Assembly: GCF_003675875.1 (NCBI RefSeq)
Contig: NZ_RCDI01000002.1
Coordinates: forward strand, 1-64,000
Length of the DNA: 64,000 bases
From: Halostella limicola
Lineage (GTDB): Archaea; Halobacteriota; Halobacteria; Halobacteriales; Natronoarchaeaceae
Direction: 5' to 3'
Shown: positions 4,120-11,390 of the stretch, piece after piece
How positions within the stretch are numbered: the first letter of the stretch is position 1
Layout: every line of letters starts with the position of its first letter
Translations under genes and position numbers: made by a program
The notes under the pieces: model-generated
What the model saw: only the letters and a program-made list of their open reading frames with translations
Database searches by the model: none
What the model was told of the DNA's origin: nothing

Positions 4120-6102
<1,983 letters not shown>

Positions 6103-6127
6103 CACCTGAATCCAAGGACGTGAGCGG

Positions 6128-6134
6128 CATAAAC
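6128..6134 (-). promoter_or_regulatory. TATA-like element of acs copy 2
   Basis: On the minus strand the sequence reads gtttatg, about 26 bases before the ATG at 6102. That is the spacing of a haloarchaeal promoter that starts transcription at or next to the start codon. Confidence 0.55.
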
Positions 6135-6216
6135 GTTCTTGCTAACGAGAGTAGGGCCCGCCCGACCGGCGAGTAGGAACAGTAAACTAATCCCCGGAGG
6201 GAGCGAACGGGACCTC

Positions 6217-7146
6217 ATGAACCTCTCCGGGAAGCGAGTGCTGGTCACGGGCGGCGCGGGCCTGGTCGGATCGCACATGGCCGACCTGCTCGCCGCCGAC
6301 AACGACGTCCTCGTGGCGGACGACCTCTCGAACGGCCGCCGCGACTGGGTCCCCGACGACGCCGAGTTCGCCGAGGTCGACCTCACGGACCCGGCCGGCG
6401 TCCGCGAGGTCGTCACCCCCGAGGTCGACGTCGTCTTCCACTTCGCGGCGTCGAAGAACGTCAACACCGACCGCCCCCGCGGACAGTTCGACGAGAACAA
6501 CGCGATGACGTACAACCTCCTCGAGCGGATGGACGAGGTCGGCGTCTCGCGGATCGCCTTCACCTCCTCCTCCACAGTGTACGGCGAGGCTCCCCGTCCC
6601 ACTCCCGAGGACTACGCCCCCCTCGAACCGATCAGCATCTACGGCGCGAGCAAACTGGCCGAGGAGGGGCTGCTCTCGACGTACGCCCACGCCCACGACT
6701 TCACCGTCTGGACGTTCCGGTTCGCGAACATCCCCGGCCCCGCGTTCGACGGCTCCGTCATCCCCGACTTCGTCGAGAAACTGGACGAGAACCCCGAGAC
6801 GCTCACTATCCTCGGCGACGGTCGACAGGAGAAGTCCTACCTCCACGTCGAGGAGTGCGTCGACGCCATCCGCCACGTCGTCGAGCACGCCGACGACGCC
6901 CACAACGTGTACAACCTCGGCACGCGCACCACGACCTCCGTGAACCGCATCGCCGACATCGTCGCCGACGAGATGGGCGTCGACCCCGACCGCGAGTACA
7001 CCGGCGGCGACCGCGGGTGGACCGGCGACGTGCCGAAGATGCGCCTCTCGGTCGAGAAGCTCTCGGCGCTCGGCTGGGAGCCGCCGCTGTCCAGCGACGA
7101 GTCGGTGCGGAAGGCGGCGCGGCAGTTGGTCGAGCAGTTGGAGTGA
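6217..7146 (+). CDS. NAD-dependent epimerase/dehydratase (UDP-glucose 4-epimerase-like)
   Basis: An extended short-chain dehydrogenase of 309 residues acting on a nucleotide sugar. The N-terminus carries the NAD-binding motif GGAGLVGSHMADLL; the catalytic residues are the serine in TSSSTVYG and the YGASK tyrosine-lysine pair. The ATG at 6217 begins right before the Rossmann strand; an upstream in-frame start would add 26 unrelated residues. The substrate cannot be read from the sequence; UDP-glucose, GDP-mannose or a related sugar for surface glycans is likely. It ends 2 bases before a convergent gene. Confidence 0.9.
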   Translation: MNLSGKRVLVTGGAGLVGSHMADLLAADNDVLVADDLSNGRRDWVPDDAEFAEVDLTDPAGVREVVTPEVDVVFHFAASKNVNTDRPRGQFDENNAMTYNLLERMDEVGVSRIAFTSSSTVYGEAPRPTPEDYAPLEPISIYGASKLAEEGLLSTYAHAHDFTVWTFRFANIPGPAFDGSVIPDFVEKLDENPETLTILGDGRQEKSYLHVEECVDAIRHVVEHADDAHNVYNLGTRTTTSVNRIADIVADEMGVDPDREYTGGDRGWTGDVPKMRLSVEKLSALGWEPPLSSDESVRKAARQLVEQLE

Positions 7147-7147
7147 G

Positions 7148-7477
7148 CTACACCGAGAACGCCGTCTCCGCCTCGCAGTCCTTCTCCCGCGCTTCGAGCG
7201 TCGCGACGACGGCGTACTCGCCGGGGGCGGGGTCCTCCCAGGTTGCCTCGTACGTCGCGGTCCCGCCCGGGTCTATCGTCTCCGAGCCGAGCATCTGGGC
7301 GAACATCCGCCCCTCGCTGAAGCGCCACACTTCCCCGCCGTCGTCGCGGACGGCGAAGTCGGCTTCGAGCGTGTCGGAGAACGACAGGTCGACCGGTTCG
7401 TCGCCGTCGTTAGCGACGGTGAAGGTGAACTGAACGCCGTCGTCGACGGTCGCGTCGAGGGTGCCGTGAAGTGACAT
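7148..7477 (-). CDS. BsuPI-type putative proteinase inhibitor
   Basis: A 109-residue all-beta protein resembling the BsuPI family, named after the intracellular proteinase inhibitor of Bacillus subtilis. Typical features are the N-terminal strand FTFTVANDGDEPVDLSFSD, the central VWRFSEGRMFAQM and the ending segment EATWEDPAPGEYAVVATLEA. It has no signal peptide or membrane segment, so it should be cytoplasmic. It lies directly downstream, on the same strand, of a Tat-exported subtilisin-like protease (gap about 105 bases), which makes it a candidate partner. BsuPI-like domains also occur in proteins not known to inhibit proteases. Confidence 0.75.
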   Translation of the reverse strand: MSLHGTLDATVDDGVQFTFTVANDGDEPVDLSFSDTLEADFAVRDDGGEVWRFSEGRMFAQMLGSETIDPGGTATYEATWEDPAPGEYAVVATLEAREKDCEAETAFSV

Positions 7478-7582
7478 GGCGCGGGCTACCGAGCGGTCGA
7501 TTATATCTCTTCTGCAGAAAAACGGAACGGGGCCGAAGAGGCAGGTGTGGGGTGGTGTCGCGGGAGGTCGCCGAAACGCTGC

Positions 7583-8737
7583 TCAGTCGTCGCTGGAGTC
7601 GAGCCCCAGCGCCGCGGCGACGTCGAGCAGCCCGCTGCCCTGCTCGTTGCTGGACAGCCCGACGTCCTCGGCAGTGGACTTCAGGCGGTCGCGCGCCTCG
7701 ACGTTCGTGTAGCCGTTCGCCATCAGCTGCGCGCCGGCGCCGGCGACGTGGGGACAGGCCATCGACGTGCCCGAGAACGTGTCGTAGCCGCCCGGGATCG
7801 TCGAGTAGACGTCTTCGCCCGGCGCGGCGAGTTCGACCTCGGGGCCGGTGCTGGAGAAGTTCGCCAGCGAATCGTCCTCCGAGGTCGCGCTGACGGCGAT
7901 GCACTCCTCGTACGCGGCGGGGTAGCCGACGCAGTCGCTACAGGGGCCGTCGTTGCCCGCCGCCGCGACGAGCAGGACCCCGTTGTTGTAGGCGTACTGG
8001 CACGCGTCCTTGACGGTCTGGGAGCCGCTGCTCCCGCCGAGGCTCATGCTGCCGACGTCGTACCCCTGGTCGGCGGTCCACTCGATGCCGGCGGCGATGT
8101 CCGACCACGAGCCGCTGCCGTTCTTGTCCAGCACCTTCGCGGCGTGGAGCGTGGCCTCCGTACTGACGCCGACGACGCCCTCGGAGTTGTTCACTGCGTC
8201 GGCCGTGCCGGCACAGTGGGTGCCGTGGTCGTTGTCGTCGTCCCAGTCGTACCGACAGACGTTCGGGCCGCCGCGACAGGAGACGAACGCGCGGCCCTCG
8301 CCGAGGTTCGCCTGCAGGTCCGGGTGGTCCGAGTCGATCCCGGTGTCGATGATCGAGATGTCGGCACCGGCGCCCGTCTCGCCGTTCGCGTGGGCGACCT
8401 CGGCGTCCGTGCGGTCGATGCCCCACGGCGTCGTCTGGGCGAGGGCCTCCCACTCGCCGTTCACTTCGACGTAGCGGACGTCGGGCCGGTTGCGAAGCGC
8501 TTCTGCCGCCCGCGCGGGCACCCGTATCGTCATCGCGTCGAACGAGAACTCCCGTACCACGGCCGCCGCGGCGTCGCTCGCTGCCCGGCGGCCGCTGTCC
8601 GCGCCGTACCCGACGTTCACCTCCACGAGGTCCTCCGGCTCCGCGCTCGCGAGCCCGCCCGCGCCGACCACGGCGAGCGCACCGCTGGTTTTCTTGAGAA
8701 CGTTACGACGGCTGACGTGTGTGCTGCCATCTGACAT
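7583..8737 (-). CDS. Halolysin-like subtilase (S8 family), Tat-exported
   Basis: A 384-residue subtilisin-like serine protease. The N-terminus has a twin-arginine signal (SRRNVLKK plus a hydrophobic stretch), then a short inhibitor_I9-like propeptide (about residues 37-95, ending VRYVEVNGEW). The catalytic triad is visible: Asp131 in IIDTGIDSDHPD, His171 in NDHGTHCAG and Ser325 in FSGTSMACPHVAG; the oxyanion Asn is N262 in AAAGNDG. The halolysin C-terminal extension is absent, so this is the short form. Tat substrates fold before export, so an active protease may exist briefly in the cytoplasm. The BsuPI-like gene follows on the same strand. Confidence 0.95.
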   Translation of the reverse strand: MSDGSTHVSRRNVLKKTSGALAVVGAGGLASAEPEDLVEVNVGYGADSGRRAASDAAAAVVREFSFDAMTIRVPARAAEALRNRPDVRYVEVNGEWEALAQTTPWGIDRTDAEVAHANGETGAGADISIIDTGIDSDHPDLQANLGEGRAFVSCRGGPNVCRYDWDDDNDHGTHCAGTADAVNNSEGVVGVSTEATLHAAKVLDKNGSGSWSDIAAGIEWTADQGYDVGSMSLGGSSGSQTVKDACQYAYNNGVLLVAAAGNDGPCSDCVGYPAAYEECIAVSATSEDDSLANFSSTGPEVELAAPGEDVYSTIPGGYDTFSGTSMACPHVAGAGAQLMANGYTNVEARDRLKSTAEDVGLSSNEQGSGLLDVAAALGLDSSDD

Positions 8738-8870
8738 GGCAACCGACCGTGACTACATCATATATTATTAATTGTTGTGGTAGTTTCAGTTAGGTTATTA
8801 ACACTATCTGGAAAACAGCGGCGGGTTCCCAAGCAGTACGCCTTTATCCGGCGACCGCCAACGCCGACGC

Positions 8871-9647
8871 GTGCAGATCGTCGGGTACGACACGGGTGCG
8901 CCGGACGACGAGGGCGGGGACGGCCGCGCGCCGGCGCTGCTGGTCGCCGCGGACGGCGTCGTAGAGCGGGCGGAACTGACGCCCGGGACGAGGCTCGCGT
9001 ACTCCCTCGGGGAGCGCCGCTGCGCGGGCGCGGTCGACGGGACAACCCACTACGCCTGCGGGAACGAGGGCGCTCCCTACTGCGACCAGCACGCGAGCAC
9101 CTGGGTGTGCGCGCGGTGCACCGGGACCTGCCTCAAGGACGAGATGGACTGCTACGAGGAGCACGCGGTGTACCTCGCCGCGTTCGCCCCGGCGACGGTG
9201 AAGGTGGGCGTCACCCGGCTCTGGCGGCTGGAGACGCGCCTCCGCGAGCAGGGCGCCGACCGCGCCGCCCACGTCCACACCGTGTCGAACGGGCGGATCG
9301 CCCGCGAACTCGAAGCCGAGATCGCGACGGACCTGACCGACCGGGTGCGCGTCCCCGAGAAGATCGCGGGGCTTCACAGCGCCGTGGACGAGGACGTCTG
9401 GGAGGTCGTTCTCGACGACTTCGACGTGATCGACCGCACCGCCTTCGACTACGGGATCGACCTCGACTCGCGGCCGGTGGTCGAAACGCTCGCCTCGGGG
9501 GAGGTCGTGGGCGTGAAGGGACGGATCCTGGTCCTGTCGAACGCCGGCACGACGTACGCGGTCGACCTCCGGGACCTCGTCGGGCACGAGGTCGCCGAGG
9601 AAGCGGCCGACCGAAACCTCCAGTCCGATCTCGGCGCGTTTTACTGA
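8871..9647 (+). CDS. DUF2797 family protein
   Basis: A 258-residue protein with the features I recall for DUF2797. A Cys-rich centre (CAGAV, YACGNEGAPYCDQH, CARCTGTC) looks like a zinc site; it is followed by VYLAAFAPATVKVGVTRLWR, which resembles the first part of a GIY-YIG nuclease fold, and an arginine-rich helix. It starts with GTG at 8871, with a TATA-like cctttatc about 30 bases upstream. No enzymatic function is established. It stands alone, divergent from the S8 protease gene. Confidence 0.75.
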   Translation: MQIVGYDTGAPDDEGGDGRAPALLVAADGVVERAELTPGTRLAYSLGERRCAGAVDGTTHYACGNEGAPYCDQHASTWVCARCTGTCLKDEMDCYEEHAVYLAAFAPATVKVGVTRLWRLETRLREQGADRAAHVHTVSNGRIARELEAEIATDLTDRVRVPEKIAGLHSAVDEDVWEVVLDDFDVIDRTAFDYGIDLDSRPVVETLASGEVVGVKGRILVLSNAGTTYAVDLRDLVGHEVAEEAADRNLQSDLGAFY

Positions 9648-9751
9648 CGGAAGTCCCGTTTCGTGCGGAGAAGCGACCCGCAGAACTCCCCGACGACCGA
9701 CGGCCGGCAGTATACCTAACCCTTTTCGGGGCGCGGACGGAACGGGGAGGT

Positions 9752-10162
9752 ATGTCGGACGACGAACCCACCGACGGCGAGGAATCGGGTGCAGAGGACA
9801 ACGGCGAGGGCGAGAGCGAGGAGAAGTCCTTCCGGGAACGCGTCGAGGAGATCCGCGAGAAGCGAGCCGAGGAGGGCGAGGGCGAAGGCGAGTCCCGCGA
9901 AGAGCGCATGGAAGAGATGATGGGCGGCGGCCCCGGCGGCATGGGCGGGGGCGGCGGCAACCCCTTCGCGCAGATGATGAGCGGCATGATGGGCGGCGGC
10001 CCGGGCGGCCCCGGCGGGCGCGGTCCGGGCGGCCCCGGCGGCGCGGGCGGGCAGGAAGCCGGTAACGAGGAGCTCGTCCGCGAGGTGCGACAGCTCCGCG
10101 ACGAGGTCCGCGACGCGACCCGCCAGCTCCAGCGCATCGCCGACGCCATCGAAGACGACTAA
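9752..10162 (+). CDS. Gly/Met-rich protein with flanking charged helices
   Basis: A 136-residue protein with three parts: an acidic, Glu-rich N-terminus with a predicted helix (about 25-60), a low-complexity centre rich in Gly, Met and Pro with repeated MMGGGPGG units (about 60-100), and a C-terminal heptad-like coiled coil (ELVREVRQLRDEVRDATRQL). The ATG at 9752 follows a ggagg ribosome-binding motif. The layout recalls proteins that assemble through coiled coils with a flexible linker. I do not recognise a family. Confidence 0.7.
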   Translation: MSDDEPTDGEESGAEDNGEGESEEKSFRERVEEIREKRAEEGEGEGESREERMEEMMGGGPGGMGGGGGNPFAQMMSGMMGGGPGGPGGRGPGGPGGAGGQEAGNEELVREVRQLRDEVRDATRQLQRIADAIEDD

Positions 10163-10286
10163 GTACCCTTCTGCGTCCTTTTCGCGTCCGTAGCGACAGA
10201 GCGCAGCCGAGCGTAGCGACTGCTCCAGTCGTTTCGAGCGACGACCTCGACGGCCGCGCCGGCGGTGCGCGGCGCGACGGTGTCCG

Positions 10287-11390
10287 CTACCGGACCCCGT
10301 CGTAGATCGTCGCCAGCCGCTCCACGGTCCGGTCGACGCTGAAGTCGTCGCGACTTTCGAGGCAGTTCTCGACGAGTCGCTCCCGGTCGGCGAGCGCGTC
10401 CTCGATCCGGGCGCGGAACGCGTCCACGTCGTCTTCCGGGTAGTGGTAGCCGGTGACGCCGTCCTCGACGGTCTCCGACAGCGCGCCGCTGTCGACGCCG
10501 ACGACCGGCGTTCCGCAGGCGTTCGCCTCCAGCGCGACGAGCCCCTGGGTCTCGACGGGGCTCGGGAACGCGAAGACGTCGAGCGACGAGTAAAACGCCG
10601 CCATCTCGTCGCGGTCGAGGAACCCGAGGAAGCGGGCGTCGACGTCGGCCGCGGCCGCCTGTCGTTCGAGGTCCTCGCGGGCCGGGCCGTCGCCGCCGAG
10701 CACCACCGTGGCGTCGAGGCCGTCGGCCGCCTCGATCAGGTCGGAGAGGCGCTTCTCGTAGCCGTGGCGCCCGGTGTACCCGATCAGCGTCTCGCCGACC
10801 AGGTCGTGGCGCTCGCGGAACGCGGTCCCGTCGACCGGGCGGAAGCGCTCGGTGTCGATGCCGTTCGAGACGACCTTCACCGGCGCGTCGATGCCCACCT
10901 CGTCGTTCAGGTACCGGCGGACGGGGTCGGTGGGCACGAGCACCGCGTCCGCGCGGTCGAAGAACCAGCGCTCGTAGCCCTCCACGAACCCGCGGAGCCC
11001 GGACGCGATGCCGTCCGTCGGCGCGAGGTAGTCCGTGTACTCGCCGCCGGGCGTGTGATAGGAGGCGACGAGCGGCGCGTCGGCGCGGCGCGCGAGCCGC
11101 ATCGCGCCGAGGCCGAGCGTGTAGGGCGTGTGCGCGTGAACGACGTCGACGTCCGCGACGGTGTCGGGTACTTTCGGCGCGCCGAGTCGGTACCCCTCGT
11201 ACCAGGGGAAGGGGACGCTACGCACCGGATGCTCGTTCGGCCCCGGAGCGTGACCTTCGGAGTGCGGGTACACGACGTCCATGCGTCCGCCGTTCCGGTT
11301 CCAGCGGTCCCGCCACGTGTCGATAGTGTAGGTCACGCCGTTTACCGTCGGGAGATACGTATCGGTAAAGGCGACGACCTGATGGTCCAT
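10287..11390 (-). CDS. GT4 family glycosyltransferase
   Basis: A 367-residue retaining glycosyltransferase with the GT-B fold. The N-terminal domain contains DTYLPTVNGVTYTID and VVHAHTPYTLG; the C-terminal domain has GYTGRHGYEKRL, GGDGPARE and the E-x7-E signature in SPVETQGLVALEA. It is closest in style to mannosyl- or glucosyl-diacylglycerol transferases of archaea; the acceptor is not readable. The ATG at 11390 is chosen over an upstream start because a TATA-like element (11415-11424) sits about 27 bases before it. Confidence 0.9.
   Translation of the reverse strand: MDHQVVAFTDTYLPTVNGVTYTIDTWRDRWNRNGGRMDVVYPHSEGHAPGPNEHPVRSVPFPWYEGYRLGAPKVPDTVADVDVVHAHTPYTLGLGAMRLARRADAPLVASYHTPGGEYTDYLAPTDGIASGLRGFVEGYERWFFDRADAVLVPTDPVRRYLNDEVGIDAPVKVVSNGIDTERFRPVDGTAFRERHDLVGETLIGYTGRHGYEKRLSDLIEAADGLDATVVLGGDGPAREDLERQAAAADVDARFLGFLDRDEMAAFYSSLDVFAFPSPVETQGLVALEANACGTPVVGVDSGALSETVEDGVTGYHYPEDDVDAFRARIEDALADRERLVENCLESRDDFSVDRTVERLATIYDGVR

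Follow-up and report, generated by a model that had tools for sequence, protein, structure and literature searches.

In Bacillus subtilis, the intracellular protein IPI (BsuPI, PF12690, formerly MEROPS I22) is reported to inhibit the subtilisin Isp1 with a Ki of about 1e-9 M, and the segment comprising residues 62–68 is docked into the active-site cleft of the protease (PMC3901451). The family has been removed from MEROPS, IPI being perhaps a competing substrate (PMC3901451). Propeptides of the Inhibitor_I9 type also inhibit subtilisins, acting in cis within the precursor; BsuPI differs from them in fold and in being a protein on its own that is not exported. In haloarchaea, halolysins (SptA, HlyR4, Nep) are S8 proteases that carry a propeptide, are exported by the Tat pathway and undergo autoactivation. 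SptA self-activates inside haloarchaeal cells and builds up in active form within Natrinema cells as they age, and a mutant of its Tat signal is lethal to Haloferax volcanii (PMC6085418), so that the hazard of exporting a folded protease is real. An intracellular subtilisin inhibitor, NSI, has been purified from Natrialba magadii (Gimenez, Sanchez and De Castro 2003, as cited in PMC3403918). Its gene was still unidentified in 2012, when the genome paper of this organism named a serpin and a PEBP as its sole candidates (PMC3403918). Our search, which left most of the subscription literature aside, found no paper that links BsuPI to archaeal proteases.

Here, we describe a window (the whole stretch of DNA analysed, 64,000 nucleotides from the haloarchaeon Halostella limicola) that holds a BsuPI gene and an S8 gene on the same minus strand, with BsuPI on the 3´ side of S8 and a gap of 105 bp. 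The downstream protein belongs to the same homologous inhibitor family as IPI, for which an S8 target is reported, and shares its wedge motif. Unlike in B. subtilis, where Isp1 is cytosolic, the S8 partner is made as a precursor for Tat export, many genomes have the two genes side by side, and the H. limicola genome has no cytosolic S8. The protease shares export route, propeptide and family with the halolysins but is compact, lacks their C-terminal extension and is about 41% identical to the halolysin-type S8s of its own genome; its subfamily is the one not found without BsuPI at close identity. NSI is likewise an intracellular inhibitor of a subtilisin-type protease in a haloarchaeon, and might prove to be a BsuPI protein. 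From comparison of genes and genomes, we propose with a probability of roughly 0.55 that BsuPI acts in the cytosol as a constitutive inhibitor of subtilases exported by the Tat pathway, and that the compact S8 subfamily depends on it.

Organization of the locus

The features of the locus are as follows.

6217..7146 (+): NAD-dependent epimerase/dehydratase gene, convergent, one flank of the ancestral BsuPI locus (PF01370, E 2.8e-49)
7148..7477 (-): BsuPI/IPI-family protein, 109 aa, without signal peptide (PF12690, E 4.2e-28; profile match to 3isy; no in-frame upstream start)
7295..7312 (-): GRMFAQ (residues 56–61), putative inhibitory wedge loop, equivalent to IPI residues 62–68 in the alignment to 3isy
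7487..7511 (-): BsuPI core promoter, with BRE AA at -34/-33 (7510–7511), TATAA at -28 to -24 (7501–7505) and WW TA at -11/-10 (7487–7488); the first base of BsuPI is 7477
7583..8737 (-): S8 subtilase precursor, 384 aa, compact, without C-terminal extension (PF00082, E 1.1e-56; subtilisin NAT, E 2.3e-64)
7610..8440 (-): S8 catalytic domain (residues 100–376), with D131 at 8345–8347, H171 at 8225–8227 and S325 at 7763–7765
8441..8641 (-): S8 propeptide region, about residues 33–99 (sub-threshold prodomain matches; mature subtilisins align from residue 100)
8693..8713 (-): Tat twin-arginine motif SRRNVLK (residues 9–15; SRRNVLKK is 9–16), from the sequence and from an RR motif shared by the S8 orthologues listed
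8760..8773 (-): AT-rich element of the S8 promoter, at -23 to -36 relative to the ATG, from the sequence and an A+T peak at -33 to -27 in 66 S8 genes
8871..9647 (+): DUF2797 gene, divergent, the other flank of the ancestral BsuPI locus (PF10977, E 3.1e-21), adjoining BsuPI with or without S8

A preliminary description of this DNA had noted the two genes, their common strand and their spacing, and had assigned to the protease a Tat signal and a full catalytic triad. Both open reading frames were re-read at these positions, and the RR motif SRRNVLKK as well as D131, H171 and S325 were checked by position; all stand. The protease scores 192.8 bits with PF00082 (cut-off 21.8), subtilisin NAT matches its residues 100–376, and the catalytic domain resembles subtilisins structurally with a TMt of about 0.94–0.96 (Foldseek). 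The reading frame stops 8 residues past this domain and thus leaves no room for the C-terminal extension of halolysins. Matches of the propeptide to I9 and fervidolysin prodomains are weak and below cut-off (E 0.03–0.05; for I9, E 0.046 and 14.8 bits against 21.2).

In its 4.1 Mb, the genome has a single BsuPI gene and 12 S8s, counting genes and fragments, which puts the probability of a chance adjacency in one genome below about 1%. Nine of the S8s, that of the window included, have a Tat signal, two are of the Sec type and one is a fragment. No cytosolic S8, the target of the inhibitor in Bacillus, was found among the S8 genes of this genome, and the idea of such a target was dropped. With every intact S8 destined for export, only those that fold beforehand, i.e. 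the Tat-bound ones, are within reach of a cytosolic inhibitor. One S8 gene fragment (L223, 1193–1771(-), G000 contig C2) is apparently a decaying copy.

The BsuPI promoter was profiled in 80 orthologous loci, 31 with S8 nearby and 49 without. Sharp A+T peaks are found in the 60 bp before the gene at -34/-33 (BRE), -28 to -25 (TATA) and -11/-10 (WW), and they appear in both sets. The BsuPI transcript is probably leaderless and made from this promoter. As BsuPI has a promoter of its own, co-transcription or co-regulation with S8 is not required, and since its elements are present with and without S8, an operon was rejected as the main control of the pair.

The BsuPI protein and predicted structures

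The downstream protein scores 97.7 bits with PF12690, against a gathering cut-off of 22.9, and a profile of 58 haloarchaeal BsuPI homologues matches the B. subtilis IPI structure 3isy with an E of 1.2e-20 over 99 positions. It had been described as BsuPI-like and without a signal, and both points are borne out. The BsuPI frame of the window contains no start codon further upstream than 7477, which excludes a signal peptide hidden upstream, as has been proposed for B. subtilis IPI; the sampled haloarchaeal BsuPIs, of about 110 aa, are all signal-less too. In the AlphaFold2 model, the putatively Ig-like BsuPI portion is all-beta with 9 strands and a pLDDT mostly of 87–98; the comparison with 3isy was made by sequence profile.

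In the alignment to 3isy, the IPI loop KEKMFTQ falls on the haloarchaeal consensus DGRMFAQ, and the wider motif WRxSxGRMFxQ, which reads WRFSEGRMFAQ in the window, is common to haloarchaeal and bacterial BsuPI relatives. By analogy with IPI, the GRMFAQ loop would be the reactive site for inhibition. It is equally conserved in haloarchaeal BsuPIs with and without a neighbouring S8. Most of the bacterial relatives fetched, from Gemmatimonadota and other groups, carry a lipobox, membrane-anchor or signal sequence, and no S8 was found next to them in the fetched loci of 3–12 kb. Those on bacterial contigs L171–L198, mainly Gemmatimonadota and Actinomycetota, have a nearly invariant loop, WRWSEGRMFTQ.

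The S8 and BsuPI genes of the window share a reading frame, so a single chain could be modelled as their natural in-frame read-through, with the stop read as G and a linker of 36 residues. AlphaFold2 folded both domains of this chain (P0003) well, with a pLDDT of 89; its pTM of 0.69 is close to that of two domains not placed relative to each other, and for a second pair (L109) the pTM was 0.66. Neither of the two runs, made with the monomer model on shallow and mostly unpaired alignments that limit what they can reveal, yielded a confident interface; in the window model, the wedge loop is not docked and takes part in no strand pairing. Structure prediction of the complex, which the preliminary description had named as a check, was successful for the domains and gave no confident interface between them.

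Models without a docked loop would suit a different role for the protein, that of an Ig-like escort or folding helper, or of a sacrificial competing substrate, for the Tat-exported S8. The putative Ig-like fold agrees with this explanation, as does the doubt in the literature that IPI inhibits at all, instead of competing as a substrate (PMC3901451). Against it, IPI is reported to inhibit subtilisins at nanomolar Ki, and the most conserved surface of BsuPI is the wedge loop, not a general face; we consider such a role quite improbable.

Conservation of the neighbourhood

PF12690 was found in 212 of 391 haloarchaeal genomes (54%), usually as a single copy. We mapped the neighbours of the window genes on 80 BsuPI loci, comprising the window and 79 further fetched loci. 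In 29 of these, from 20 genera and 6 families, an S8 gene immediately precedes BsuPI in the same orientation, with a median gap of 72 bp. Among the others, one has BsuPI before three S8s (L050), one has a more distant S8 (L088), and 49 have no S8, a sensitive HMM search of the latter revealing no further S8 gene. S8-bearing loci include those of Halostella pelagica, Halobium salinum, Halegenticoccus, Haloprofundus and Haloferax marinum, and S8-less ones those of Natrinema, Natronococcus and Natrialba. Recurrence across the class, together with the low odds within one genome, rules out chance adjacency. The preliminary description had taken the pairing as a sign of function and proposed to look for it in other genomes; it is indeed kept across families, and the presence of S8 predicts that of BsuPI.

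The number of proteases per locus varies, and in some loci a single BsuPI accompanies arrays of 2 to 5 S8 genes. In L097–L100 (G123, G325, G274 and G176), 4–5 Tat-type S8 genes stand in tandem ahead of one BsuPI; secreted proteases are seldom expanded locally to this extent. The order is reversed in L050 (G234), with BsuPI at 5992–6327 and three tandem S8 genes at 6416–10367 on the same strand.

The ancestral block reads acetyl-CoA synthetase, convergent epimerase, BsuPI, zero to five S8 genes, divergent DUF2797, a small acidic hypothetical gene and GT4. The divergent DUF2797 gene (8871–9647 in the window; L032–L110) adjoins BsuPI with great constancy, also in loci that lack S8. In nearly all of twenty further loci of g8, a large genus of f5, DUF2797 likewise stands beside BsuPI and S8 is absent.

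This arrangement could reflect inherited synteny only, BsuPI having a housekeeping role in an old block and S8 being merely interposed before DUF2797. The unit epimerase–BsuPI–DUF2797 is kept with or without S8, BsuPI stands alone in 49 of the 80 loci and has its own promoter, and AlphaFold2 gives no confident interface between the two proteins, all of which favours this view. The trees speak against this explanation. In the S8 tree (INDEPENDENCE), the state of lying beside BsuPI needs 7 changes, of which at least 5 are forced by well-supported branches, and non-adjacent S8 copies (e.g., in G370, G386 and G251) nest among adjacent ones in genomes that retain BsuPI. In the BsuPI tree, at least 7 changes in S8 adjacency are forced. 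Furthermore, three pairs (L045, L055 and L085) lie outside the ancestral block. At one of these other loci, L085 (G311), BsuPI is paired with an S8 of another lineage, a Tat S8 of the halolysin type located 162 bp upstream; in the tree, this BsuPI forms a sister pair with the one of L055, which in turn adjoins a window-type S8 carrying a C-terminal extension. Although the trees rest on few columns and leave several forks open, such repeated pairings appear hard to explain by inheritance alone. Inherited synteny is also at odds with two further results, namely that S8 implies BsuPI even when the genes lie far apart, and that a control S8 has no within-genus association at the strict cut-off. 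We therefore regard it as unlikely to be the whole explanation, although inherited synteny and common ancestry do account for part of the association.

A Sec-signal S8 (4159–5754(-)) is divergent from BsuPI (5968–6306(+)) in L201, outside the ancestral locus; the divergent arrangement of a Sec-type S8 and BsuPI in L201 and L176 may be due to chance.

Co-occurrence across genomes

The window S8 was searched in the same 391 haloarchaeal genomes as PF12690. Against a base rate of 212/391, BsuPI is present in 105 of 116 genomes with a window-type S8 at E<=1e-90, in 85/91 at <=1e-120, in 64/65 at <=1e-140 and in all 51 at <=1e-150. The lone exception at <=1e-140, G389, has a BsuPI beside its S8 that is interrupted by a run of N, and counting it gives 65/65. 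The co-occurrence is one-sided: BsuPI without S8 is common, and no close S8 without BsuPI was found in the 391 genomes.

As a control, we used a halolysin-type Tat S8 of the H. limicola genome, which co-occurs with BsuPI in 141 of 167 genomes (84%); part of the raw signal is accordingly due to lineage. When genomes were stratified by genus (the strata list 325 of the 391 genomes and omit the other 66, which have no halolysin-type match), z was 3.7–4.1 for the window S8, and for the control it fell from 2.9 to 0.44 at the strict cut-off. A pure lineage effect is thereby ruled out, the within-genus signal at strict cut-offs being specific to the window-type S8. In Haloferax (genus g22), BsuPI occurs in 3 of 15 genomes, and these three carry a compact S8 beside it; in the class sample of this genus (n=13), 9 of 10 halolysin-bearing genomes are without BsuPI. 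The window-type S8 subfamily thus seems especially dependent on BsuPI.

BsuPI could conceivably guard the cytoplasm against proteases other than the Tat-exported S8s of its own cell, such as the S8 of lysing neighbours or non-S8 proteases, and the gene does occur in 45 of the 189 genomes that have no S8 of either type at strict cut-offs. Its presence nevertheless tracks the secreted S8 of the genome itself, rising from this class to 62/86 in genomes with a halolysin-type S8 only and to 105/116 in those with a compact S8 (strict cut-offs, 391 genomes), and some S8 is present in 202 of the 212 BsuPI-bearing genomes. We give this explanation very little weight.

Proposed role

The preliminary description saw in the pair a safety catch that holds the neighbouring protease inactive until export. 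Its premise, that a Tat-exported protease could act inside the cell, is backed by the self-activation of SptA in haloarchaeal cells (PMC6085418). The idea of a cytosolic inhibitor is supported by the co-occurrence and the conserved pair; that it would be private to its neighbour is not, given its own promoter and the S8-less loci. Three points favour a general subtilase inhibitor over a private catch: the lack of S8 in 49 of 80 loci, a loop no less conserved in these, and a separate promoter for BsuPI.

We envisage the following sequence of events, in which binding, inhibition and physiological role are all deduced from sequence data. The Tat-exported S8 would fold in the cytoplasm, where it could remove its own propeptide. 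BsuPI would then bind mature or leaking S8 via the wedge loop WRFSEGRMFAQ and keep its active site closed for as long as the enzyme is neither exported nor degraded. As BsuPI would stay inside the cell, the protease would be free once outside. The greater dependence of the compact S8 subfamily could be what keeps both genes in one genome, often adjacent. If this is correct, a conserved cytosolic inhibitor would answer how haloarchaea survive the export of a folded protease, and the BsuPI family gains independent genetic support as subtilase inhibitors after its removal from MEROPS.

A broader proposal is that haloarchaea generally rely on constitutive cytosolic BsuPI to keep Tat-exported subtilases from becoming active too early, and that the BsuPI gene encodes NSI. 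We put this forward tentatively and with more doubt than conviction. Natrinema gari carries BsuPI (L133) yet accumulates active SptA in old cells, which counts against such a guard and against the inhibitor role proposed above. If the proposal is true, the purified archaeal inhibitor gets a gene. BsuPI genes were found in four Natrialba species other than N. magadii, which makes BsuPI a natural candidate for NSI and a lead to its gene.
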